In this document: one piece after another, positions 7,042 to 22,453 of the stretch
Numbering within the stretch: the stretch's first letter is position 1
Layout: each line of letters begins with the position of its first letter
Source: Rhodobacter sp. TJ_12
GTDB lineage: Bacteria > Pseudomonadota > Alphaproteobacteria > Rhodobacterales > Rhodobacteraceae
Direction: 5' to 3'
DNA length: 64,000 bases
Assembly (NCBI RefSeq): GCF_020023995.1
Contig: NZ_NRRD01000003.1
Coordinates: 188,685 to 252,684 of the forward strand
Program-made: the position numbers and the translations under genes
Notes under the pieces: generated by a model
What the model saw: the letters and a program-made list of their open reading frames with translations, nothing else
Told to the model about the DNA's origin: nothing
The model's database searches: none

Positions 7042-8817
7042 ATGCCGATTTCCGTTTTGAAAGATTGTCTGCCCTTTTACGGCGACAAGACCAATTTCAT
7101 GATGCGCGGGGGGCTGCGCCCCTTCAACCTGAGCGGAGGCTCCTATCTGAATTTCGTCAAGGCAAGCGTGGCGGACCGGAACTTCTTGGCGTTTCACAAA
7201 GACTGGAAGGTGAAGATCGACAGTCTGAACAATGCCCAGCGCGGTACGCAGGGCGAGGTGACAAAGGCGCTCGCCCGGCGCGTCAATCTGCGCGCCAGCA
7301 AGACCGATATCTTCGACGATCTGTGGCACATCACATGGGAGGCGAAGACCTACAAGAAAGACGTGGATGAGACGATCGCGGGCGATCTGGAAGATGCCTA
7401 TGATCTGGCGGCGCGGGTGGCCACGCAGACGCCCTTTCCCAATCATCCGATCCTTCCGCCAAATATCCCTTGGCAGCGCCTAACATGGGACCGGATCGTC
7501 GAGGCCCCGGCGGGCCCGAATTATGTGGTGTTTTCCGACATGCACATGATGGATCATTCCAGCGATTTTTCGCTGCCCAATTACTTCAAGGACCACAATC
7601 TGGACCTGTATCTTGAGGTGCTGACCCATTACGCGGATCAGCCCGGCTGGTGCCTTGTTGAAAATGGCGATGTCGAGGAATGCATCATCTATGAGGTCGA
7701 TGCAGGCGATGCGCAGGTGCGCAAATCGCTAAGCAAACCCGCGCGCAAATATCCGATCACCCAGACCGATGCGGATTGGGATGCGTTCATGGCGGTGCGT
7801 TACACCAAGCGCGAAGCCACGCTGGGGCGGCTTTTTATCAGCTTTCGTCCCTATTACGACCTGATCCGCGACCGGTTCATTGCCGAGGACCGCTATGTGC
7901 GGCTGACCGGCAACCATGACACCTATTCCAACACCGAACGCGAGCGGGTGCTGCGCAACATGATCGAAGACGAGCTTGGCGTTGCGGTGGCGGATGTGGC
8001 GACGGTGTCGCAAGGTGGGCAGATCTCGCATCTGATCTTGCACGGCCATCAATTCGATACCGTTTCAATCCAAAGCGGGGCCGTGCCCTATGCGCTGTCG
8101 CTGGGCGAGGTGTTTTCGGAAACGGTGTCTTGGATTTATGAGGGGCCGGATCGCTTCTGGCCCGACCGCGATTGCCGCGCGTGGCTTGCGGGCGGCAGCA
8201 TCGGCAATATCTTAGCGCGCGAGGAAGAAAGCGGCTATTCCCACGACACAATATGGAACCTGCTGAACGCGGGGGGCGACACGGCGCGCGATAAGATCAA
8301 GGCCGATACCAGAGGCTTTGTCGAAGCCCTGCTGGAACATGAAATCGCTTGGGAATATTTCGAAAACAAAGATCCGTGGTATGCGCTTGCGCTCGAAGTT
8401 GCGACCGGGGATGAGTGGTTCAAGCTGCGCCATCTGAATGAACGTGCACTCTGTGACGGTTACTTTGATCGCTACCGCCACCATTCAGGCCAGAGTGTCA
8501 GGCAGGCAAAGGCCAATATTCCGAAACTTGTGCTTGGCCACACCCATGAGCCGCGCTGCAATGCCGTGGACCCCAACCATGGGGAACGGTCATGGTATCT
8601 CAACAGCGGCTCGGCGGGCCGGTTCGAAAACCTGATCTGGGCGGTGGAAATCACCCCAAGCGGGGACCGGATCGTGTCTTGGTCACGCGTCGACGGGCGG
8701 CTGCGCAAAACCATCTGGCGCGACGAAAGCGCGGAATTCCCTATGCCAGTGCCATGGGGCGAACCAAAGACAATCCATAGCTCCAACCTCGTTCTGGACC
8801 ATTACGAATACCCCTAA
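7042..8817 (+). CDS. Metallophosphoesterase (calcineurin-like)
   Basis: This is 591 aa with the full calcineurin-like metal-binding series: SDMHMMDHSSDF (about residue 165), ENGDVEEC (about 208), LTGNHDTYSNTERERV (about 290), ILHGHQFD (about 335) and LGHTHEPRCN (about 495). The family hydrolyses phosphomono- or diesters with a two-metal centre; the substrate here is unknown. It is longer than the usual 250-400 aa, with helical insertions between the third and last motifs. No signal peptide is seen, so it is likely cytoplasmic. A GGGGG run lies 8 nt before the ATG. It sits just downstream of the 5881 gene and is followed by an inverted repeat. Confidence 0.88.
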   Translation: MPISVLKDCLPFYGDKTNFMMRGGLRPFNLSGGSYLNFVKASVADRNFLAFHKDWKVKIDSLNNAQRGTQGEVTKALARRVNLRASKTDIFDDLWHITWEAKTYKKDVDETIAGDLEDAYDLAARVATQTPFPNHPILPPNIPWQRLTWDRIVEAPAGPNYVVFSDMHMMDHSSDFSLPNYFKDHNLDLYLEVLTHYADQPGWCLVENGDVEECIIYEVDAGDAQVRKSLSKPARKYPITQTDADWDAFMAVRYTKREATLGRLFISFRPYYDLIRDRFIAEDRYVRLTGNHDTYSNTERERVLRNMIEDELGVAVADVATVSQGGQISHLILHGHQFDTVSIQSGAVPYALSLGEVFSETVSWIYEGPDRFWPDRDCRAWLAGGSIGNILAREEESGYSHDTIWNLLNAGGDTARDKIKADTRGFVEALLEHEIAWEYFENKDPWYALALEVATGDEWFKLRHLNERALCDGYFDRYRHHSGQSVRQAKANIPKLVLGHTHEPRCNAVDPNHGERSWYLNSGSAGRFENLIWAVEITPSGDRIVSWSRVDGRLRKTIWRDESAEFPMPVPWGEPKTIHSSNLVLDHYEYP

Positions 8818-8823
8818 GCGACC

Positions 8824-8843
8824 GGGCGGGCTATAGCCCGCCC
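8824..8843 (+). terminator. Inverted repeat after the metallophosphoesterase
   Basis: A GC-rich perfect palindrome (gggcgggcta / tagcccgccc) starts 7 nt after the stop codon. It lacks a T-run, so its terminator role is tentative. It lies between convergent genes. Confidence 0.45.
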
Positions 8844-8845
8844 CA

Positions 8846-8895
8846 TGCCAGTCCGACGCGTGCCAGTCCGACGCCTGCCAGTCCGACGCGTGCCA
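8846..8895. repeat. 15-bp tandem repeat, 3.3 copies
   Basis: The unit tgccagtccgacgc(g/c) occurs at 8846-8860, 8861-8875 and 8876-8890, plus a 5-base partial copy, in the gap between the metallophosphoesterase and cobQ. The copies differ at one base. No spacers are present. Confidence 0.85.
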
Positions 8896-8908
8896 AAAGC
8901 GCCCTCCC

Positions 8909-10483
8909 CTATTTGGCCAGCGCCAAAAGTGCATCCAGATCAAGGTCGTTTTCCAACTGATCGGCCAAGGCATCAAGCGTGGCCTCGATCTGCGCCTCGT
9001 GATCGCGGCCAGAAGCGCGCCCGCCCATCTGCGCCAGCCAGTAATCACGAAACCCGTCGGCGCCAAAGATGCCGTGCAGATAGCCGCCCATCACCCGACC
9101 ATCGTGCGACACAGCCCCTTCCGGGCGGCCCTCAAGGTTGAACCACGGCTGCTCCAGCCCCGGCCCCGTGGTGCGCCCCATATGCATTTCATAGCCCTGC
9201 ACCTGCTGGCCGCTGATTGTGTCGCGCGCGGAAATCTCGACCAGCGCTTTTTCCCCGCTGATCACCGTTTCCAGATCCAACAGCCCCAGCCCCTCGGTCT
9301 CGCCCGGATCGCCCTCGATCCCTTCGGGGTCGCGCACCACCCGGCCCAACATTTGATAGCCCGCACAAATGCCGACCACGCGCCCCCCGCGCCGCAAATG
9401 GGCGCGAATATCCACATCCCAGCCCTGCGCGCGCAGGGTTTCGAGCGCCTTGCGCGTGGTCTTGGAGCCGGGCAACAACACCACATCAGCCTCTGCCGGG
9501 ATCGGCTGGCCCTGCCGCACCCAGCGCAAATCCACGCCGGGCTCCGCGCCAAGCGGGTCCAGATCGTCGAAATTCGCCACGCCATCAAGATGCGGCACCG
9601 CGATCACCAACCCCGCGCCACCCGCTTGCGCAGGCCGTTCCAGCGCCAAGGAATCCTCGGCGGGCAGTTGCGTCGCCCCTTCGAACCAACGCGCCACCCC
9701 CATGAAGGGCCAGCCGGTCATCTCTGTCATGGTGCGGCAGGCGGGTTCGTACAGCGAAAAATAGCCCCGGAATTTGTTGACCAGAATGCCCTTCACCCGG
9801 GCGCGTTCTTCTTCATCATGCAGCATCCAACTGCCCACCACGGCGGCCAGCGCCCCGCCGCGGTCATTATCCGTCACCAGCACCACCGGCAGATCGGCTT
9901 CTTTGGCAAGCCGCATATTGGTGATGTCGGTCTTTTTGATCCAGGTTTCCGTTGCCGCCCCCGCGCCTTCGACCAGCACCAGATCGGCCTCGGCGGCGAC
10001 GCGGCGATAGCTGTCCAAAACGGCGGGCAAAAGGTAGGGTTTAAGGTGGTGGTAATGGCGCGCGGGCCAATTGCCCAAGGGCCGACCCCGCAACACCACC
10101 TGAGAGCCAACCATCGCCTGCGGCTTAAGCAGCACCGGGTTCATATGGATCGACGGATCAAGCCCCGCCGCCCGCGCCTGAAGCGCCTGCGCGCGCCCGA
10201 TCTCGCCACGGTTTTGCTGCCCGTCCGCGCGCGGCGGCAGATCGCTATCCTTGGTCACGGCGGCATTGTTGGACATGTTCTGCGCCTTGAACGGCGCGAC
10301 TTTCAGCCCGCGCCGCGCATAGGCCCGGCACAACCCCGCCACCAACAGGCTTTTGCCCACATCCGAACTGGTGCCTTGGATCATCAATGCCCGTCCCCGG
10401 CGCGGCGGCGGCGGGGTGAGAAAGGGCAAATCAAGGTCCGGAAGCGGCGGCACCGGATCATGGGCAGGCAAGTCGGAAGTCAT
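8909..10483 (-). CDS. cobQ: Cobyric acid synthase CobQ
   Basis: This is 524 aa from the ATG at 10483, close to the usual CobQ length. CobQ amidates the b, d, e and g side chains of adenosylcobyrinic acid a,c-diamide using glutamine and ATP. The N-terminal dethiobiotin-synthetase-like domain has the P-loop variant IQGTSSDVGKSLLVAGLCRA (about residue 40), followed by KAQNMSNNAAV. The C-terminal class I glutamine amidotransferase domain shows the nucleophile motif VGICAGYQMLG and a His-containing MGGYLHGIFG. The preceding gene on the same strand ends 210 bp upstream and encodes a cobalamin-linked Cys-rich protein behind a riboswitch, so both may belong to one B12-repressed unit. Confidence 0.95.
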   Translation of the reverse strand: MTSDLPAHDPVPPLPDLDLPFLTPPPPRRGRALMIQGTSSDVGKSLLVAGLCRAYARRGLKVAPFKAQNMSNNAAVTKDSDLPPRADGQQNRGEIGRAQALQARAAGLDPSIHMNPVLLKPQAMVGSQVVLRGRPLGNWPARHYHHLKPYLLPAVLDSYRRVAAEADLVLVEGAGAATETWIKKTDITNMRLAKEADLPVVLVTDNDRGGALAAVVGSWMLHDEEERARVKGILVNKFRGYFSLYEPACRTMTEMTGWPFMGVARWFEGATQLPAEDSLALERPAQAGGAGLVIAVPHLDGVANFDDLDPLGAEPGVDLRWVRQGQPIPAEADVVLLPGSKTTRKALETLRAQGWDVDIRAHLRRGGRVVGICAGYQMLGRVVRDPEGIEGDPGETEGLGLLDLETVISGEKALVEISARDTISGQQVQGYEMHMGRTTGPGLEQPWFNLEGRPEGAVSHDGRVMGGYLHGIFGADGFRDYWLAQMGGRASGRDHEAQIEATLDALADQLENDLDLDALLALAK

Positions 10484-10693
10484 TTCTAGGTCCGTTCGGT
10501 CATTCAGGCAGTCAATGGCCGCGAACCTAGAAGCCTCGCACCGAAAGGCCAAGCAGGTATGGCATTTTTCGCTGCACGCAGAACGTGCAAGGCCCGCAAC
10601 TGAGGCGAAGAAATCTGGCCAAGCCCGCGCTTTGCACGCCCCCGTTTCGCGCGCGCCCTCGCGGCCCCGCGCCTGGCGCCGCCTTGGCGTGCC

Positions 10694-11071
10694 CTAGTCG
10701 GCCTTTGGGCGGCGATGCGCGGCCGCGGCGGCCTCGGCCGCGCCCGGGGCGGGTTTGGGCCGCGCCACCGGCGGATCGGTCTGCGGCTTGCCCGACCAAG
10801 GTTGCGGATATTCCAGCCATTTCTGGATGAAATTCCACGATTGCACATAGCCGTCATGCGGCAGCGCACAGCCCGAACAATCCTTGCGCGTCAGGCCGTT
10901 GCGGTCGGTATAGGTTTTATAGGGACCGGGGCATTCATAGGCGATCAGCGGGCAATAGCAAAACAGGCAGTTGAACTCGCGCTTCACGCCCTGATGGCAG
11001 GGCAGGAACGGGCATTTTTCGTTGGTGAAACCCTTGAAGGCCTCGCTGATCGTCGTGTCTTTGGGCTCCAT
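10694..11071 (-). CDS. Cysteine-rich small-domain protein (cobalamin-cluster associated)
   Basis: This is 125 aa. Residues 15-75 contain eight Cys with His (KCPFLPCHQGV, FNCLFCYCPLIAYECPG, DCSGCALPHDGY), matching the cysteine-rich small domain (PF04071 as I recall it), which often neighbours cobalamin genes. The tail is a Pro/Ala-rich linker (PVARPKPAPGAAEAAAAA). The fold probably holds a metal; no enzyme activity is known to me. It is the first gene downstream of the cobalamin riboswitch at 11180-11345, so high B12 should repress it. Confidence 0.75.
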   Translation of the reverse strand: MEPKDTTISEAFKGFTNEKCPFLPCHQGVKREFNCLFCYCPLIAYECPGPYKTYTDRNGLTRKDCSGCALPHDGYVQSWNFIQKWLEYPQPWSGKPQTDPPVARPKPAPGAAEAAAAAHRRPKAD

Positions 11072-11179
11072 ACCGGTCCTCTGGCTCCGTCGCTGTCTGG
11101 TTGCTGGGGGCGGAAACGGGGCATCGCTGCGGGCACGAACCGAAGCGCCATGCCGCCGGGCCCGCCGCCCGGGATGGTC

Positions 11180-11345
11180 AATGGCCCGGTAGGTCTCCTG
11201 GCTTACGGCTCCAACGCCCGCGGCGCCTTCCCGATCTTGCGATCCGTGGCCGTGCTTTGGGCTTGCCGCTTACAGTTGCGGGGGCAGCGCCGGAGTTGCA
11301 CCGGCTTCCCTCTTCGTCCACGGGGCTCCCGCGAAACCAAGGCCC
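11180..11345 (-). promoter_or_regulatory. Cobalamin riboswitch upstream of the Cys-rich protein
   Basis: Read on the minus strand, the core GGTGCAACTCCGGCGCTGCC is preceded by gggaagcc and followed by CCCGCAACTGTAAG (about 11270-11312). The B12 box AGCCAGGAGACCTACC lies at about 11189-11204. All hallmark segments are present in the correct order, about 110 nt before the 11071 start codon. The rest of the 11072-11436 gap holds nothing else I recognise. Confidence 0.93.
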
Positions 11346-11436
11346 CGCCAAGATGGGGTCTGTCCCGCAGAGAGTCAACGGTGCCACGGGGGCGCCGCAA
11401 TCGCAAACGGCCCCCCGATCCGGCGCCTTCGGGGCG

Positions 11437-12564
11437 CTAAAGGTTGAGCGCAAGGCCGCCATTCCCGGGGCCCACCTCCATCAATTGCACAAGGCTGCCG
11501 ATCCCGCCCCAATCGACCTCGGACAGCGCCATCCCCTCGGCCCGGTGGCGGATCAGGTTCAGCCGCTGTGCCACCTCGGAAAGCGGCCCGGCGCGGTGCC
11601 CGCCCAGCCAGATGTGTCGCCCCGGGCAGGCATCACGCAAATGCGCCGCCAATTGATCGGCGCTGCCGCCGGGCAGATCCGGGGCCACCCGCGGCCCCGC
11701 AACCAGCACCAGCGCATCGGGGCAGGCCCGCACCGCGCTGAGCGTAGCATCCACGGTCTCTTCCAGCACCACCCGCACGCAAAATCCGGCCGCGCGCAGC
11801 AAATCGGCCTTGACCTTGACCCCGATCAGTTCGGTCTCACCGGGCGGCAGCACAAGGCACACCTGCCCCCGCGCCTGCGCGGGCTGGGCCAGCCGCCCCT
11901 GCCGTTGCCAAAGCCCGTTAAGATGGGTCAGGGCCAGCATGATCTGCGCGCTGTCGAGGCTTTGCTGTGCCCGCATCTGGGCCATATGCGCCAGACACGC
12001 CTCCACAAAGGCGGCGCGCAGGCGCAGATCGCGCGCCCCGGCTTCGGGCAGTCTGGCGGTTTCGCCTCCCGCACATAGGGCCGCCACGAATTCGGGCACC
12101 CGCGCCAGCAGCGGCCCCGGCAGCAGCCCGCCGTCGGACTGCGCGATCTGGTCAAAGGCCCGCAACGCCGTTTCCAGCGTCGCGGTGCGGTCATTGGTGT
12201 TTTGCGCGGGCAAGCCAAGCCCCGCAGGCGCCTCCATATAGGGCATGGAGCGGCGGGCAAAGCGGCGCGCGGCGGTCCAGCCGATGGCGACAAGCTCCCC
12301 TTCGCCAAACCACGGCGCCGCGATCAATTGGGGAATGCGTTCGCAAAGCTGGCTTCCCGGCGCCTCAAGCCAATAAAGAAACCCGGTCGGGAAAGCGACC
12401 AAAGCCCCCGTCACGCCCCGGGCGTGGTTCTGCACGCTTTGCTCGCGCGCGATCTGCGACAAAGATTCTGCCGCGGGCGCGCCTTGCATGCGCGAAGCCA
12501 AAACGACCCGCAAGATCGGGTTCTTCGCATTCGAAGCTGTATCCAAAACGCCCATTCCATCCAT
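11437..12564 (-). CDS. AppA-like regulator: degenerate BLUF domain plus B12/heme-binding (SCHIC-type) domain
   Basis: This is about 375 aa from the ATG at 12564 (12555 is an alternative); the upstream open frame runs through the riboswitch and is not coding. Residues 15-110 align with BLUF domains: LRVVLASRM, QNHARGVTGAL, FLYWLEA, ARRFARRSM. Against AppA of Rhodobacter sphaeroides, the flavin Tyr21 position is Leu and the Gln63 position is Tyr, while Asn45 is kept. The C-terminal 120 residues (VCLVLPPGETELIGVKVKAD, LVLVAGPRV, IWLGGHRAGP) have the B12-binding Rossmann pattern, but the DxHxxG ligand motif reads ETELIG, so the axial His is missing. It is likely a cytoplasmic regulator. The B12 riboswitch directly upstream suggests control by cobalamin. 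The fold assignment is by pattern. Confidence 0.75.
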   Translation of the reverse strand: MDGMGVLDTASNAKNPILRVVLASRMQGAPAAESLSQIAREQSVQNHARGVTGALVAFPTGFLYWLEAPGSQLCERIPQLIAAPWFGEGELVAIGWTAARRFARRSMPYMEAPAGLGLPAQNTNDRTATLETALRAFDQIAQSDGGLLPGPLLARVPEFVAALCAGGETARLPEAGARDLRLRAAFVEACLAHMAQMRAQQSLDSAQIMLALTHLNGLWQRQGRLAQPAQARGQVCLVLPPGETELIGVKVKADLLRAAGFCVRVVLEETVDATLSAVRACPDALVLVAGPRVAPDLPGGSADQLAAHLRDACPGRHIWLGGHRAGPLSEVAQRLNLIRHRAEGMALSEVDWGGIGSLVQLMEVGPGNGGLALNL

Positions 12565-12649
12565 CCCATGGGCCGCACAGCGAGACAGCGCGACAGGGCA
12601 GATCCGCCCATGGCGCACGTCTCCCCGGTTCACCCCGCCCGAAAACGTC

Positions 12650-12825
12650 TGTGATGGCAGGTCTTCTGGCTTGCGGGTCGATGCTTGGCCGGGCCTTCCC
12701 GGGCATGGGCCCAGTGGCGGTTTCAGCCTCGCTCGCCGCTTACAGTTGCGGGGGCAGCCACGGATTTGCCCAAGGGCGCACCGTATTCCCTTTTGGCGCG
12801 ACCGCATCGCGCGGCCCGCACACCA
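12650..12825 (-). promoter_or_regulatory. Cobalamin riboswitch upstream of the BLUF-like gene
   Basis: The minus strand reads aaaagggaatacggtgcgcc, then a hairpin, then GGCTGCCCCCGCAACTGTAA (12739-12795), and ends in the B12 box AAGCCAGAAGACCTGCCA (about 12655-12672). The element is complete and ends about 90 nt before the start codon at 12564. Confidence 0.93.
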
Positions 12826-12873
12826 TCGCGCACAAGGTACTGGCTGCATCCGCGTTGTGAAGGACAGTCATTG

Positions 12874-12974: not shown

Positions 12975-14045
12975 TTATACCTCGACCGCCACCTTGCCGC
13001 TGGGGCGCGAACAACAGGCCAGAATATAGCCCTCGGCGATCTCATCTTCGGAAATGCCGCCATTGTGCAACATCTGCACCTCGCCCTCGGTTTTCTTGAT
13101 CTTGCAGGTGCCGCACAGCCCGAAATTGCACCCCGAAGGGATATTCAGACCAGAGCGTTTCGCCGCCGCCAGAATGGTTTCCTCTTCCGCGCAAACGGCG
13201 GTGACGCCTGAGGCGGTGAAGCACACCTCGGAATTGCCCGCCACGGCGGCGGCAGCCGCTTCAGCCTCGGCCAGCGCGTCAAAGGCGATCTCGGGCGCGC
13301 CAAAGCTTTCTTGGTGGTAATGCGCCAAATCAAAGCCCAGCGCGGCCAAAATCTCGCGCACCGCTTGCATGAAGGGTTCGGGACCGCAGCAAAACACCTC
13401 GCGTTCCAGATAATCGGGCGCCATCAGCGCCAGCATGATCTGGTTCAGCCGCCCGGTATAGCCGTGCCAGACCTCAAGCGCGTCGGCCTCTTCCACCGTC
13501 AGATGCAATTGCAGCCCCGGCACGCGGGCGGCGAAATGCTCCAACCGGGGCCGAAAGATAATGTCAGACGGGCTGCGCGCGGCATGGACAAAGGAAATAT
13601 CGGTCCTTTCGCCGCTGTCCCACGCCCAGGTGGCCATCGACATCATCGGCGTGATTCCCGAGCCCGCCGAGATGAACAGGTATTTTTCCGCCGGATGGCG
13701 GCGGAAGGTGAAATTGCCCGCCGGACCATGCGCCTTGAGCCGCATCCCGGGCTTAAGATGATCCAGCATCCAGCGCGTGCCCACCGAGCCGGTCTGCGCC
13801 TTAACGGTGACCGAGATCGACAGCGGCCGCGAGGGCGAAGAGGAGATCGTATAGGTGCGGCTGACCGGATTGCCCGGCACCGGCAGATCAAGGGTCAGAA
13901 ATTGCCCCGGCAGGTAGTCAAACCACGCGCCCGACGGCGCGCGAAAGGTGAAGGTCGCCGTATCGGCGGTTTCGGGCACCACCATCGAGCATTCCAAAAG
14001 CTCGGTGTCGGTCCAAGGTTCTCCGGTCCAGTTATGACGCCGCAT
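12975..14045 (-). CDS. gbcB: Glycine betaine monooxygenase reductase subunit GbcB
   Basis: This is 356 aa from the ATG at 14045. It is the electron-transfer partner of a Rieske oxygenase: an FAD-binding domain (RTYTISSSPS about residue 75, the flavin motif RxYS/T), an NAD-binding domain (FISAGSGITPMMSM about 125, FCCGPEPFM about 220) and a C-terminal plant-type 2Fe-2S ferredoxin with CNFGLCGTCK and ACCS as cluster ligands. It starts 4 nt after the stop of the oxygenase gene, so the pair is one operon. The product should pass NADH electrons to GbcA for oxidative demethylation of glycine betaine to dimethylglycine. Stachydrine-type demethylases have the same layout, so the substrate is likely but not certain. 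Confidence 0.85.
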   Translation of the reverse strand: MRRHNWTGEPWTDTELLECSMVVPETADTATFTFRAPSGAWFDYLPGQFLTLDLPVPGNPVSRTYTISSSPSRPLSISVTVKAQTGSVGTRWMLDHLKPGMRLKAHGPAGNFTFRRHPAEKYLFISAGSGITPMMSMATWAWDSGERTDISFVHAARSPSDIIFRPRLEHFAARVPGLQLHLTVEEADALEVWHGYTGRLNQIMLALMAPDYLEREVFCCGPEPFMQAVREILAALGFDLAHYHQESFGAPEIAFDALAEAEAAAAAVAGNSEVCFTASGVTAVCAEEETILAAAKRSGLNIPSGCNFGLCGTCKIKKTEGEVQMLHNGGISEDEIAEGYILACCSRPSGKVAVEV

Positions 14046-14049
14046 GTCG

Positions 14050-15291
14050 TTACTCCGCCGCCAAGGCCGGGTCCGGGCCAAGCCGCGCCCCCAGCGTGTT
14101 GCAATACCAATCGACGAATTGGATCACACCCTCTTCTTGCACCAGCGAATAAGGGCCGGGCACATAGGCGGGCGAACGCACACCGACCTGATTTTCTTCC
14201 ACAACCTGACGGTCTTCGTCATTGGTGGCCATCCAGACCTCGGTCAATTCCTTCAGGTCGTAATCCACCCCTTCCACGGCATCGCCCGGCACCAGCCAGG
14301 TGGTCGTCACCTCGGTTTCGGTGGCCGAGATCGGCAGCACCCGGAAGACGATCGCATGATCGGCCAAGAAATGGTTCCAAGTGTTGGGATAGTGAAAGAA
14401 CAGCAAGCTGCCCGCATCGTTGAACGGGATCGTGCCCAGCCGTTTGCCACGCACGGCGGGCTTGGTGCTCATCGTGTAGCTTTCGGCTTCATTCAAAAGC
14501 GGGATACGCGCCAGCCGCCATTGCATCTCGGGGTGGTTGACGAAACGCGAGGGCAGGCCCGCCGCCTCGCACCGTTCCCAATGGGCCAAGATATCGGGGC
14601 TGGCGGCATCGGGGCCTTCCATCGCCGTCATGCGCGGATTGTCCGAATAGGTGCGGCACAAAGACGGATGCGCGCCGCCGCAATGATAGCATTCGCGGTT
14701 GTTTTCGACCACCAGCTTCCAGTTGCCCTTCTCGACGATGGTCGAAACATGGGCGACGCGTGCCTCTTTCAGGCCTGCGGGGGCCAAGTACCGGCCCAGA
14801 GCGCCCGCCAGTTCGGCGATGGAGGGCGGCACCTCGGCCAAACAAATGAAGACCATCCCGCCGATATCGACGCAATGCACCTTTTTGAGCCCATGCGCGC
14901 GCGGATCGAAATCCTCTTGCATGTCCTTGGCCCACAGCAGCTTGCCATCCAGATCATAAGTCCACTGGTGATAAGGGCAGACCAGCTTGGGGGCGGTGCC
15001 GCCCGCCTTGGCGCACAGACGTTGGCCACGGTGGCGGCAGACATTGTGAAACGCGCGGATCATGCCATCGGCGCCGCGCACCACGATCACCGGATAGGCA
15101 CCCACTTGCAGCGTGGCATAATCCCCCGCCTTGACCAATTGGCAAGAGGGCACGGCAAACAGCCATTCGCGCGCGAAGACATGGTCCAGATCGGCCTGAA
15201 AAACGGCCTCGTCACAATAAAGATCACGCGGCAGGGCATAATTCTTTTGGCGTGCGGCCAGTTGCGCACGAATTCCGGATGCATCCAGCAT
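14050..15291 (-). CDS. gbcA: Glycine betaine monooxygenase Rieske subunit GbcA
   Basis: This is 413 aa from the ATG at 15291, which has AGGTG 6 nt upstream; an earlier in-frame ATG overlaps that Shine-Dalgarno. The N-terminal Rieske domain has the cluster ligands CRHRG and CPYHQW (about residues 85 and 105). The C-terminal catalytic domain has ENNRECYHCGGAHPSLC, which carries the facial-triad His residues and the bridging acidic residue. It hydroxylates an N-methyl group that leaves as formaldehyde, converting betaine to dimethylglycine. It is followed immediately by its reductase gene. A cobalamin-riboswitch-like element lies upstream, a link that would make sense because betaine is a methyl source. 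Confidence 0.88.
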   Translation of the reverse strand: MLDASGIRAQLAARQKNYALPRDLYCDEAVFQADLDHVFAREWLFAVPSCQLVKAGDYATLQVGAYPVIVVRGADGMIRAFHNVCRHRGQRLCAKAGGTAPKLVCPYHQWTYDLDGKLLWAKDMQEDFDPRAHGLKKVHCVDIGGMVFICLAEVPPSIAELAGALGRYLAPAGLKEARVAHVSTIVEKGNWKLVVENNRECYHCGGAHPSLCRTYSDNPRMTAMEGPDAASPDILAHWERCEAAGLPSRFVNHPEMQWRLARIPLLNEAESYTMSTKPAVRGKRLGTIPFNDAGSLLFFHYPNTWNHFLADHAIVFRVLPISATETEVTTTWLVPGDAVEGVDYDLKELTEVWMATNDEDRQVVEENQVGVRSPAYVPGPYSLVQEEGVIQFVDWYCNTLGARLGPDPALAAE

Positions 15292-15394
15292 CGAACACCT
15301 CACTTGCCCCGGCCTCCCCGCAAGGGCTGGTTAGACGGATGGGCCGTGGCCCGGTGATGTCTGGGGGGCGGGGTAAGTTTGCGCGCTGAGCCGA

Positions 15395-18350: not shown

Positions 18351-19157
18351 TTACTCCACATCGTGGGCGGTGATCCAGATCACCGCGTCTTGGCTCAGTT
18401 CCTTGCCATCATATTCGGTGGCCGGGCCCGTGCCCAATGCCGCAAAGCCCCATTGGCCCGCCTTCGGAATGCCAAAGGTAAAAAGCCCATTGGCATCGGT
18501 GATCGCCACCACGGCACCGCCCGGCATCGGGCCCACGCTTGGCGCGCTGGCGGCCAGCGTCGCCATATCCGGCGCGGCGGCAAGATATTCGATCTCGATC
18601 TCAGCGCCCGCAACGGGCTTGCCTTCGGAGAGCAACTGGCCGGTGAAGGTGGAGCCTGCCAAAATATTGGTCGGCTTGTTCAGCGGCACGATCTCGGTGG
18701 GCAGGCCCAAAGGCGCATTCCACCCGCTGGGGATACCGTTCTTGTTGAAATAGGCTTTGGTGATCTGCTGGATATAGATGTCTTCCGAGCCTTCGTAATA
18801 AGGCGCAGGTGTCAGAGCGACGATGTAATCGCCATTGCGCTTGACCGGCAGCGTCGCGGTGAAGGCGGCGGCTTCGTTATTGGCGCCCTTGAAGGTCGCG
18901 GGCGCAAGCGTGCCCATCAGATCGATCTTTTCGCCCTTGAACACCGAAAAGAATTCCAGTGGCTGGCCCATATCCATCGCATGACCGTTTTCAAACGGAT
19001 GCCAGAAAGCCAAAAGCAGCGGCACATCGCCGGGGCGGTGGAGCGTGGTTTGGGGGGAATAGACAAGCTGAAAGTGGGCCGCAGCCGCACCGGGTAAAAA
19101 CGTGAAGCCCATCAGGGCCAGAATGGCCGAGGCCATACGGGTCTTGGTCTTAATCAT
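18351..19157 (-). CDS. DUF4198 (NikK-type) periplasmic accessory protein of the Co/Ni importer
   Basis: This is 268 aa from the ATG at 19157, with GAGAGGA 6 nt upstream. It has a signal peptide (ILALMGFTFLPGAAAAH) whose mature N-terminus starts with His (AHFQLVYSP), a common metal-site position in this family. DUF4198 features include FWHPFENGHAMDMGQP, PYYEGSEDIYIQQITK and a C-terminal carboxypeptidase-like domain with DANGLFTFGIPKAGQWGFAA. It is first in the cbi/nik operon behind a cobalamin riboswitch. A close paralogue, about 85% identical by eye over most of its length, lies at 21668 in the feo operon. Confidence 0.85.
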   Translation of the reverse strand: MIKTKTRMASAILALMGFTFLPGAAAAHFQLVYSPQTTLHRPGDVPLLLAFWHPFENGHAMDMGQPLEFFSVFKGEKIDLMGTLAPATFKGANNEAAAFTATLPVKRNGDYIVALTPAPYYEGSEDIYIQQITKAYFNKNGIPSGWNAPLGLPTEIVPLNKPTNILAGSTFTGQLLSEGKPVAGAEIEIEYLAAAPDMATLAASAPSVGPMPGGAVVAITDANGLFTFGIPKAGQWGFAALGTGPATEYDGKELSQDAVIWITAHDVE

Positions 19158-19297
19158 CTTATCCTCTCTCTGGCCCGGCACAGCCGGACACATTCCGAAA
19201 GGACAACGGGGAGCGGCACAGACGGTCTGGGGCCGTGCTGAGCCAGACGCACACCCCGGCGTCCGGTTGCATCGCGGCGCAAAACGTCCACGAGTCA

Positions 19298-21300: not shown

Positions 21301-21648
21301 ATGACACCTTTCCCCAACATTCTGGCCGCCAAAGCTTTGAAACCCAAAGCTCTTCTGGCCGCTGCCGCAATGATCGCCCTGCCCTCTGTCGCCGCCGCGC
21401 ATACGCCGCTGTGCGCCTGCTATGACAATGGCGATGGCACGGTGCTGTGCGAGGGCGGCTTTTCGGATGGCTCCTCTGCCACCGGCGTGGCGATGCGGGT
21501 GACGGGGGCCGATGGCGCCGTGGTCACCGAAGGCGCGATGGGCGCGAGCAGCGAATTCACCTTCGACAAGCCCGAGGGCGATTACACCGTGCTGTTCGAT
21601 GCCGGTGAAGGCCACAAGATCGAGATCCCCGCAGAAGAAATCTATTGA
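21301..21648 (+). CDS. Small periplasmic NikL-like domain protein of the feo operon
   Basis: This is 115 aa from the ATG at 21301, with GGAG 8 nt upstream. A signal peptide (LLAAAAMIALPSVAAAH) is followed by a compact domain with three Cys (LCACYDNGDGTVLCEG) and then GGFSDGSSATGVAMRV, TEGAMGASSEFTF and DAGEGHKIEIP. This order resembles the extracytoplasmic domain of NikL at 17105 (GFSDGKMGENVPVA, DEGYFSY, FGAGHVAE), but the C-terminal membrane anchor is absent. The mature N-terminus begins with His. The gene starts an operon with a NikK-like gene and feoAB, so a role in handling ferrous iron in the periplasm is my inference. Confidence 0.7.
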   Translation: MTPFPNILAAKALKPKALLAAAAMIALPSVAAAHTPLCACYDNGDGTVLCEGGFSDGSSATGVAMRVTGADGAVVTEGAMGASSEFTFDKPEGDYTVLFDAGEGHKIEIPAEEIY

Positions 21649-21667
21649 GCAAACCCGGAGACATCCT

Positions 21668-22453
21668 ATGAAACGCCTTCTTGCCAGCGCCGCCGTGACG
21701 GCCCTTTTCGCCCTGCCCGCGCAGGCGCATTTCCAGCTTGTCTATGCCCCCGAGGCCAATCTTGACCGCCCCGGCGATGTGCCGCTGCTGTTGGCCTTTT
21801 GGCATCCGTTCGAAAACGGCCATGCGATGGATATGGGCCAGCCGCTTGAGTTCTTTTCGGTGTTCAAGGGCGAAAAGACCGATCTAACGGGCTCGCTGAC
21901 CCCAGCCACATTTAAGGGCGCTGACAATGAAGCCGCCGCCTTCACCGCGACGCTGCCGGTCAAGCGCAATGGCGATTACATCGTCGCCCTGACGCCCGCG
22001 CCTTATTACGAAGGCTCAGAAGACATCTATATTCAGCAGATCACCAAGGTCTATTTCAACAAAGGCGGCATCCCGACCGGTTGGGACAAACCAGTGGGCC
22101 TGCCCACCGAGATCGTGCCGCTGAACAAGCCCACCAATATCATCGCGGGCTCTTCTTTCACCGGCCAGTTGCTCTCTGAGGGCGAACCGGTCGCGGGCGC
22201 CGAGATCGAAATCGAATATCTTGCCGCTGCGCCGGATATGGACAGTTTGGCCGCAGGCGATGCCACGGTCGCGCCGATGGCGGGCGGTGCGGTGGTGGCG
22301 ATCACCGATGAGGATGGGCTTTTTACCTTTGGCATTCCGAAAGCGGGTCAATGGGGCTTTGCCGCATTGGGTGTTGGCCCAGCCACCGAACATGACGGCA
22401 AGGAACTGAGCCAAGACGCGGTGATCTGGGTCACCGCCTACGAGATGGACTAA
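21668..22453 (+). CDS. DUF4198 (NikK-like) periplasmic protein of the feo operon
   Basis: This is 261 aa from the ATG at 21668. A signal peptide (LLASAAVTALFALPAQAH) leads into a mature chain starting His-Phe-Gln. The body (FWHPFENGHAMDMGQP, ALTPAPYYEGSEDIYIQQIT, EDGLFTFGIPKAGQWGFAAL) is nearly the same as the importer accessory at 18351. The starts and ends differ more than the core, so this is a recent duplication or a gene-conversion pair. It starts 19 nt after the NikL-like gene and is followed 77 nt later by feoA. It probably binds a divalent metal in the periplasm. Confidence 0.82.
   Translation: MKRLLASAAVTALFALPAQAHFQLVYAPEANLDRPGDVPLLLAFWHPFENGHAMDMGQPLEFFSVFKGEKTDLTGSLTPATFKGADNEAAAFTATLPVKRNGDYIVALTPAPYYEGSEDIYIQQITKVYFNKGGIPTGWDKPVGLPTEIVPLNKPTNIIAGSSFTGQLLSEGEPVAGAEIEIEYLAAAPDMDSLAAGDATVAPMAGGAVVAITDEDGLFTFGIPKAGQWGFAALGVGPATEHDGKELSQDAVIWVTAYEMD

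Follow-up and report, generated by a model that had tools for sequence, protein, structure and literature searches.

The 64,000-nucleotide stretch of Rhodobacter sp. TJ_12 considered here (contig NZ_NRRD01000003.1; the whole stretch is referred to as the window) encodes on its minus strand a 372-amino acid protein with a BLUF-like domain followed by a SCHIC-like region (11437..12555). The leader of this gene contains a cobalamin riboswitch aptamer (RF00174; 12639..12842, minus strand), which was recognised by cmscan over the full model (1-189) with a score of 117.4 bits and an E-value of 8.8e-29 and which agrees with the family in both sequence and structure, as an earlier note made from the sequence alone had claimed. 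A chance pairing of riboswitch and gene is excluded, because of the E-values and because the same arrangement occurs at ten other loci. The 3' end of the gene at 11437 is as given in the earlier note, while the 5' part of the interval proposed there (11437-12825) belongs to the riboswitch. Both this interval and the longest open reading frame (11437-12849) take in most or all of the riboswitch, and the long open reading frame was rejected as the protein, its first 70 or so codons falling inside the aptamer region. Judged by the distance from the aptamer and by the relatives, translation most likely starts at ATG 12555, or at the alternative ATG 12564 nine bases before it. The gap from the aptamer end to ATG 12555 is approximately 84 bases, the assumed starts at the ten other riboswitch-led loci lie 88-114 bases past the aptamer, and the annotated start in one Rhodovulum sulfidophilum record lies just 27 bases past it. 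A conserved segment at or just past the aptamer end, GGGCGGGGTGNNCCG followed by a purine-rich stretch (12618..12641, minus strand), is common to all 11 riboswitch leaders compared by eye and is probably part of the expression platform. Going by the general behaviour of cobalamin riboswitches, B12 would turn the gene off through this leader, the repression which the earlier note had also expected.

Domain architecture and predicted fold

The BLUF-like domain spans residues 14-108 (12232..12516, minus strand), as delineated by the Pfam BLUF model, the predicted fold and Foldseek, while the SCHIC-like region, comprising a helical cap and a Rossmann half, covers approximately residues 123-336 (11548..12189, minus strand) and is supported by a profile match to the AppA SCHIC domain and AerR, by the structural model and by Foldseek matches to 4heh, 4hh3 and 7te2. 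In a Pfam search with a 398-residue translation, BLUF scored 24.7 bits (cut-off 25) and AppA_SCHIC 14.2 bits (cut-off 28.6); in the genome search BLUF reached 28.3 bits, above the cut-off, as the sole BLUF match in the genome. The window protein as a single query matched AppA (6e-6), BlrB (0.03) and AerR (0.04) with phmmer, and a profile built from five relatives matched full-length AppA (4hh0) at 2e-34, together with other BLUF proteins, AerR and CarH. The AlphaFold2 model, based on an eight-row alignment, has a predicted local distance difference test score of 78.4 and a predicted template modelling (TM) score of 0.71. Its top four Foldseek matches are full-length AppA structures (4hh1/4hh0, best E-value 1.9e-14), followed by the AppA SCHIC domain, BLUF proteins and AerR; whole-length TM-scores are low (0.41-0.45), and the arrangement of the domains in the model is not reliable. 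The profile, model and Foldseek matches together show that both BLUF and SCHIC are present, and the window protein thus has the AppA layout, BLUF then SCHIC. The layout proposed earlier is upheld by structure prediction, the model containing a BLUF fold rather than a BLUF-free one.

Photochemistry and ligand residues

Residues were called from an alignment of 22 sequences, with the AppA row of genome G051 and the Rhodobacter capsulatus PpaA/AerR row as rulers. The AppA Tyr21 position is Leu (residue 19; 12499..12501), that of Asn45 retains Asn (residue 43; 12427..12429) and that of Gln63 is Tyr (residue 61; 12373..12375), while the position of AerR His145, the lower axial cobalt ligand, is occupied by Glu242 (codon GAA; 11830..11832), all on the minus strand. 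These substitutions, as well as the presence of the N-H-A-R-G-V-T-G segment, had been read correctly from the sequence alone. The Leu/Asn/Tyr combination departs from the photoactive Tyr/Asn/Gln triad of BLUF photoreceptors, and the AppA Trp104 column holds Arg; the window protein is probably light-blind. In the part of the source consulted, AerR His145 is given as the lower cobalt ligand and the heme ligand of AppA, His284, is offset from it by two residues (PMC9144470). The His284 column also holds Glu in the window protein, so that neither of the two known tetrapyrrole ligand histidines is present, and the columns of the AerR upper-cap residues Trp94 and Phe101 contain Arg and Ser. Going by these residues, the protein would bind neither cobalamin nor heme.

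A clade with glutamate at the axial ligand position

Relatives were drawn from the genus (four of 18 genomes), a family sample (394 genomes), contigs of named genomes (seven loci) and plasmids, with loci found twice merged before counting. Four plasmid records cover at least 80% of the query, three of which were included and one (NZ_CP015422.1) left out; a plasmid search with the protein of genome G118 yielded no further full-length relative. The window protein falls in a clade of 12 sequences and one broken 13th copy, alongside those of R. capsulatus DSM 1710 and SP108, G118, Rhodovulum euryhalinum, Rhodovulum sulfidophilum DSM 1374 and DSM 2351 (near-identical copies), a Cereibacter azotoformans plasmid, Alkalicaulis satelles and three metagenome-assembled genomes (MAGs), one of them labelled gammaproteobacterial. 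The 13th copy, in an R. capsulatus-type genome of the same genus (G200), is broken across frames (L022 ~8000-9300); its riboswitch scores 129 bits though the gene behind it is broken. The copy of MAG L072 stops about 30 codons before the match end, and its tail may be broken or misassembled.

Glu occupies the AerR His145 column in all 12 clade members, with the two preceding residues varying, and none of the 12 has His in the AppA His284 column. Elsewhere the His145 column contains His in the BLUF-SCHIC proteins of G062 and G915 and in both PpaA rows, Pro, Arg, Pro and Gln in the four AppA-type rows, and Asp in two more distant BLUF-SCHIC proteins (G384 and G364). The latter two genes (L067 6265-7803 and L069 2083-3510) have no riboswitch in the stretches scanned, and the BLUF triad of G384 is degenerate (Val/His/Gln). 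Given its invariance, the Glu looks selected rather than decayed and looks like a mark of the family. Loss of the axial His was accordingly rejected as a sign of degeneration, the AppA-type rows being without it too: the cobalamin ligand is lost as the earlier note stated, only not as a peculiarity of the window protein. In a tree of 20 BLUF-SCHIC proteins the 12 Glu-type sequences stand apart from eight AppA-, His- and Asp-type ones with support of 100/99, which also places the window protein outside the AppA clade; the G118 branch is long and its placement unsure. In G091 and G359 the AppA gene, like the gene in the window, has a gbcB-like neighbour. A displaced AppA ortholog at the appA locus was nevertheless rejected, the gbcB-like gene being convergent in those two genomes and in tandem in the window, and the tree separating the proteins.

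The clade is rare. That the gene might be common was rejected on a class sample of 385 genomes, where the window's own genome gave the sole two-domain match at E ≤1e-15. Among 390 genomes sampled from the order, those recognised as two-domain are that of the window, G379, the His-type G062 and G915 and the AppA-type G051, G091 and G954, while the family sample of 394 contains at least nine, at least three of them Glu-type.

The BLUF triad is intact in seven of the 12 clade members (G118, the three Rhodovulum copies, Alkalicaulis and two MAGs), two of the seven being strains of one species. Cereibacter (Phe) and MAG L072 (His) lack only the Tyr, and the loss is most extensive in Rhodobacter, with Leu/Asn/Tyr in the window and Leu/Pro/His and Leu/Pro/Gln in R. 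capsulatus. Light-blindness therefore looks derived and the loss of the BLUF residues late. Six of the seven triad-intact relatives carry a cobalamin riboswitch upstream, so that light sensing is compatible with the B12 switch. The nine non-Rhodobacter rows share 16 invariant BLUF positions, of which the window protein keeps 10, and 14 invariant SCHIC positions, of which it keeps 13. For the two R. capsulatus copies, the ratio of nonsynonymous to synonymous substitution rates (dN/dS) comes to 0.43 over the whole gene (BLUF 0.61, linker 0.26, SCHIC 0.33), compared to 0.08-0.26 for six neighbouring genes in the same pair, and that between the two triad-intact Rhodovulum sulfidophilum copies, which differ by few changes, is 0.14 for BLUF and 0.25 for SCHIC. 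This pattern suggests relaxation of the light-sensing half in R. capsulatus and continued constraint on the SCHIC half, weaker than that on ordinary genes.

Riboswitches and gene neighbourhoods of the clade

A cobalamin riboswitch lies directly upstream of the gene at 11 of the 13 clade loci. None was found upstream of the Alkalicaulis and Cereibacter plasmid copies, even at E-values up to 1; the Cereibacter leader holds riboswitch-like pieces by eye. At the other BLUF-SCHIC loci scanned (G062, G051, G091, G359, G384 and G364; G915 and G954 were left out) there is no riboswitch directly ahead of the gene.

Genes for B12-independent enzymes occur near nine of the 13 clade loci, the window not among them, a count uncorrected for the background of random neighbourhoods; genes with B12 riboswitches tend to cluster anyway. 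The enzymes comprise isocitrate lyase and malate synthase, class I or III ribonucleotide reductase, MetE and those of the methylcitrate cycle, B12-free counterparts of MetH, NrdJ, the ethylmalonyl-CoA pathway and methylmalonyl-CoA mutase. Each of the three R. capsulatus-type copies diverges from a riboswitch-led nrdD (nrdD family tested in one locus); near it are nrdG and genes for malate synthase A, isocitrate lyase and a PrpD-like protein (each family tested at a single locus and otherwise identified by eye). The gene follows annotated aceB-aceA at both Rhodovulum sulfidophilum loci, while in Rhodovulum euryhalinum isocitrate lyase lies upstream in two reading frames (by eye) and metE, prpB and prpC downstream on the opposite strand. 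Riboswitch-led genes for class I ribonucleotide reductase adjoin the copies in MAGs L072 and L073. The copy on the conjugative Cereibacter plasmid is situated between aceBA on one side and a regulator gene, an MmgE/PrpD-family gene, prpC and prpB on the other, with a riboswitch-led nrdD beyond prpB and a riboswitch-led ring-hydroxylating dioxygenase gene at the opposite end. The plasmid, C. azotoformans pORIO2, thus encodes the dioxygenase, aceBA, BLUF-SCHIC, PrpD-family, prpC, prpB and nrdD genes with two cobalamin riboswitches within 15 kb (L087 1-14981), possibly a mobile B12-bypass island. No B12-bypass neighbours occur in the stretches read at the window, Alkalicaulis, G118 (at a contig end) and L076, and a search of the window's genome for isocitrate lyase gave no match. 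In G118 the riboswitch and gene stand at the contig end beside relaxase, VirD4/TraG-like, recombinase and PIN-domain genes (L018 1-8483; by eye), hinting at transfer of the riboswitch-gene pair.

Association with phototrophy and PpsR

All ten carrier genomes tested, a count that leaves out the hosts of the three plasmid copies, encode PpsR/CrtJ above the curated cut-off and photosynthetic reaction-centre genes. Within the genus the gene is present in four of seven phototrophs (one copy broken) and in none of 11 non-phototrophs (Fisher approximately 0.01, calculated by hand and ignoring kinship). In the family sample all nine of the two-domain BLUF-SCHIC genomes recognised are phototrophs, against 167 of 394 overall. 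The genome of the window also contains a PpaA/AerR-like gene, with the His motif PPGEQHTLG, adjoining ppsR, and a gene read by eye as bchE comes after ppsR.

Possible roles of the BLUF-SCHIC protein

The sources consulted in part describe AerR/PpaA as binding cobalamin (PMC9144470, PMC6199135) and AerR as a B12-binding antirepressor of CrtJ (PMC5362033), its long form LAerR activating the photosystem genes and stimulating cobalamin biosynthesis genes and its short form SAerR repressing the photosystem genes (PMC6199135). Against this background, the reading preferred here, to which we give an even chance, is that the window protein is a cobalamin-free and probably light-blind PpsR/CrtJ co-regulator of the AppA/AerR (SCHIC) family, which stands in for AerR/PpaA at low B12 and signals through its abundance. 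With ample B12, the riboswitch would hold the gene off and the B12-bound AerR/PpaA encoded beside ppsR would do the job. Under B12 shortage, AerR would fail just like the B12-dependent enzymes, the riboswitch would open and the BLUF-SCHIC protein would accumulate, its SCHIC domain taking the place of AerR on PpsR with no need for cobalamin. Control of the photosystem genes, and perhaps of cobalamin genes, would thereby continue, with the mRNA leader taking over sensing from the protein pocket and protein amount acting as the signal. By analogy with the stimulation of cobalamin biosynthesis genes by LAerR, the stand-in could also help the cell to recover B12. PpsR is the presumed target from the family membership of the protein and the co-occurrence of PpsR, a positive effect on the photosystem genes is assumed, and AerR action would have to fail without B12. 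Under this reading the riboswitch, the missing ligand residues, the B12-bypass neighbours and the association with PpsR have a single explanation. It retains from the earlier note an anti-repressor-like role with amount as the signal, as suggested by the family and the PpsR co-occurrence; for a protein sensing something else, the note's other suggestion, there is no positive evidence.

Several points weigh against it. AerR and AppA act oppositely on CrtJ according to the part of PMC6199135 consulted, and family resemblance therefore leaves the sign of the effect unfixed. The column of AerR Gln112, which faces PpsR/CrtJ in a docking model described in the consulted part of PMC9144470, contains Asn in ten of the 12 clade members, one of them the window protein, while the ten sequences outside the clade all have Gln, so that the PpsR interface may differ. 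PpsR binding, repression by B12 and ligand-free folding of the window protein are themselves putative. With the triad intact in the seven relatives, 'light-blind' does not describe the family, and the window locus adjoins cobQ and gbcAB without the B12-bypass set. R. capsulatus is reportedly isocitrate lyase-negative, by the title of a 2005 paper; together with the broken copy in one R. capsulatus-type genome, this suggests that the gene and the bypass set are dispensable.

The main rival, which we consider unlikely though the most credible of the alternatives, is a brake at B12 shortage, in which the protein would act on PpsR/CrtJ as a co-repressor like the short form of AerR and shut the photosystem genes at low B12. 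Its rationale is that the anaerobic cyclase BchE needs cobalamin and that the BchE substrates are phototoxic. The distribution with PpsR and phototrophy fits a brake as well as it fits the stand-in, the window's genome carries the gene read as bchE behind ppsR, and the consulted parts of two sources report that BchE activity in extracts depends on adenosylcobalamin (PMC4500134) and that SCHIC proteins can have opposite signs, as with SAerR and LAerR (PMC6199135). Nothing in the sequence fixes the sign, however, and the clustering with B12-bypass enzymes suggests that a B12-dependent function is being replaced, not stopped.

A sensor of another ligand appears improbable. The invariant Glu would here shape a pocket that accepts another tetrapyrrole, a base-on cobamide, a metal or some other small molecule, with the riboswitch only setting the supply of the protein. 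The conservation of Glu behind two variable residues, the retention of the AerR upper-cap Trp94 in eight of the 12 clade members (Arg in the window) and the Asp at the Glu column in the two more distant proteins are consistent with such a pocket, but no ligand His stands at either known position and the cap Phe101 is lost in all 12, the window protein being without the cap Trp as well. Equally improbable is a decaying relic without current function in Rhodobacter, for which the elevated R. capsulatus dN/dS (0.43 overall and 0.61 in BLUF, against at most 0.26 in the neighbouring genes) and the broken third R. capsulatus-type copy speak, and against which stand the intact 372-codon reading frame and 117-bit riboswitch of the window, the SCHIC dN/dS of 0.33 and the 13 of 14 invariant SCHIC positions kept.

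Beyond the stand-in function, a regulator swap may tentatively be proposed, at somewhat less than an even chance: phototrophs would exchange the B12-dependent AerR for a cobalamin-free regulator under a cobalamin riboswitch, as occurs with B12-free isozymes, in some lineages carrying it with the B12-bypass set, and once sensing had moved from protein to mRNA the light sensor would have decayed in Rhodobacter. An example of such carriage is the conjugative plasmid of Cereibacter with its dioxygenase, aceBA, prpC, prpB and nrdD genes, where the regulator gene has no recognised riboswitch.

Comparison with known systems

AppA of Rhodobacter (Cereibacter) sphaeroides shares with the window protein the BLUF and SCHIC layout, the best whole-length structural match and the co-occurrence with PpsR. 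It differs in its Cys-rich tail, the last 80 residues containing six Cys in the AppA row of G051 and one in the window protein (one of the four AppA-type rows, that of G359, is also without the tail), in its BLUF Tyr and Gln, both lost in the window, and in its heme-position His, a weak criterion since three of the four AppA-type rows are also without it. Furthermore, no cobalamin riboswitch lies directly ahead of the AppA gene in G051, G091 and G359. AerR/PpaA has in common with the window protein the helical cap and Rossmann fold, the PPGE..(L/I)G motif and PpsR in the same genomes, while the window protein has Glu for His145, a BLUF domain in front and neither cap Trp94 nor Phe101, and its gene is not beside ppsR.

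The B12-independent isozymes MetE, NrdAB and NrdDG, cobalamin-free versions made when B12 is low, are led by the same riboswitch class, and riboswitch-led ribonucleotide reductase genes lie beside the BLUF-SCHIC gene at several loci; here, however, the product is a regulator and not an enzyme. A PpaA/AerR-like protein without the cobalamin-binding motif, HP1 (Rru_A0625) of Rhodospirillum rubrum, is needed for pigment synthesis according to the part of PMC10734443 consulted, and a cobalamin-free member of this regulator family is thus not new by itself. The HP1 gene, unlike that of the window, adjoins ppsR, and the word BLUF does not occur in PMC10734443. Among the open-access papers listed in literature searches, with subscription papers outside their scope, no title or abstract opening describes such a riboswitch-led BLUF-SCHIC gene; one co-mention of BLUF and a B12 riboswitch (PMC9545926) was rejected, the match being the gene name bluF in the part of the article consulted. 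As far as these searches show, the novelty lies in the riboswitch, the stepwise loss of BLUF residues and the Glu signature.

Should the stand-in reading hold, photosynthesis control would be tied to B12 supply by a route outside the B12-binding photoreceptor AerR, and the isozyme-swap logic of cobalamin riboswitches would extend from enzymes to a regulator. The light-competent, Tyr-only loss and fully degenerate BLUF forms provide a natural series for asking what a SCHIC antirepressor does without a ligand, and the question can be tested now, as culturable R. capsulatus and Rhodovulum sulfidophilum strains carry copies.

Neighbouring genes and other features of the window

Downstream of the BLUF-SCHIC gene, a second cobalamin riboswitch (11171..11356, minus strand; 119.6 bits) leads the genes for a zf-like, Cys-rich small protein (10694-11071, minus strand; Pfam PF04071) and CobQ (8909-10552, minus strand; Pfam PF07685 and PF01656). 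The small protein has no NCBIfam match and is possibly involved in cobalt or cobalamin handling. Upstream lie the genes for a GbcB-like reductase and a GbcA-like Rieske oxygenase (12975..15303, minus strand), assigned by NCBIfam matches below the cut-off, with a weak fourth cobalamin riboswitch match ahead of gbcA (15530-15355, minus strand; 31.8 bits against a gathering score of 31.5). A strong cobalamin riboswitch (93 bits; L068 3761-3967) precedes a similar GbcA-like gene, read by eye, in G359, and one of 104 bits (L087 1255-1450) precedes the annotated ring-hydroxylating dioxygenase gene of the Cereibacter plasmid. These riboswitch-led GbcA-like oxygenases suggest O2-dependent, B12-free demethylation of glycine betaine under B12 control. 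Finally, the window encodes two secreted proteins (18351-19193 and 21512-22453) that are closely similar by eye and that we take to be DUF4198-like. One copy adjoins riboswitch-led cobalt transport genes and the other a FeoB-like gene, and the pair is perhaps a duplicated metal-uptake accessory split between cobalt and iron.

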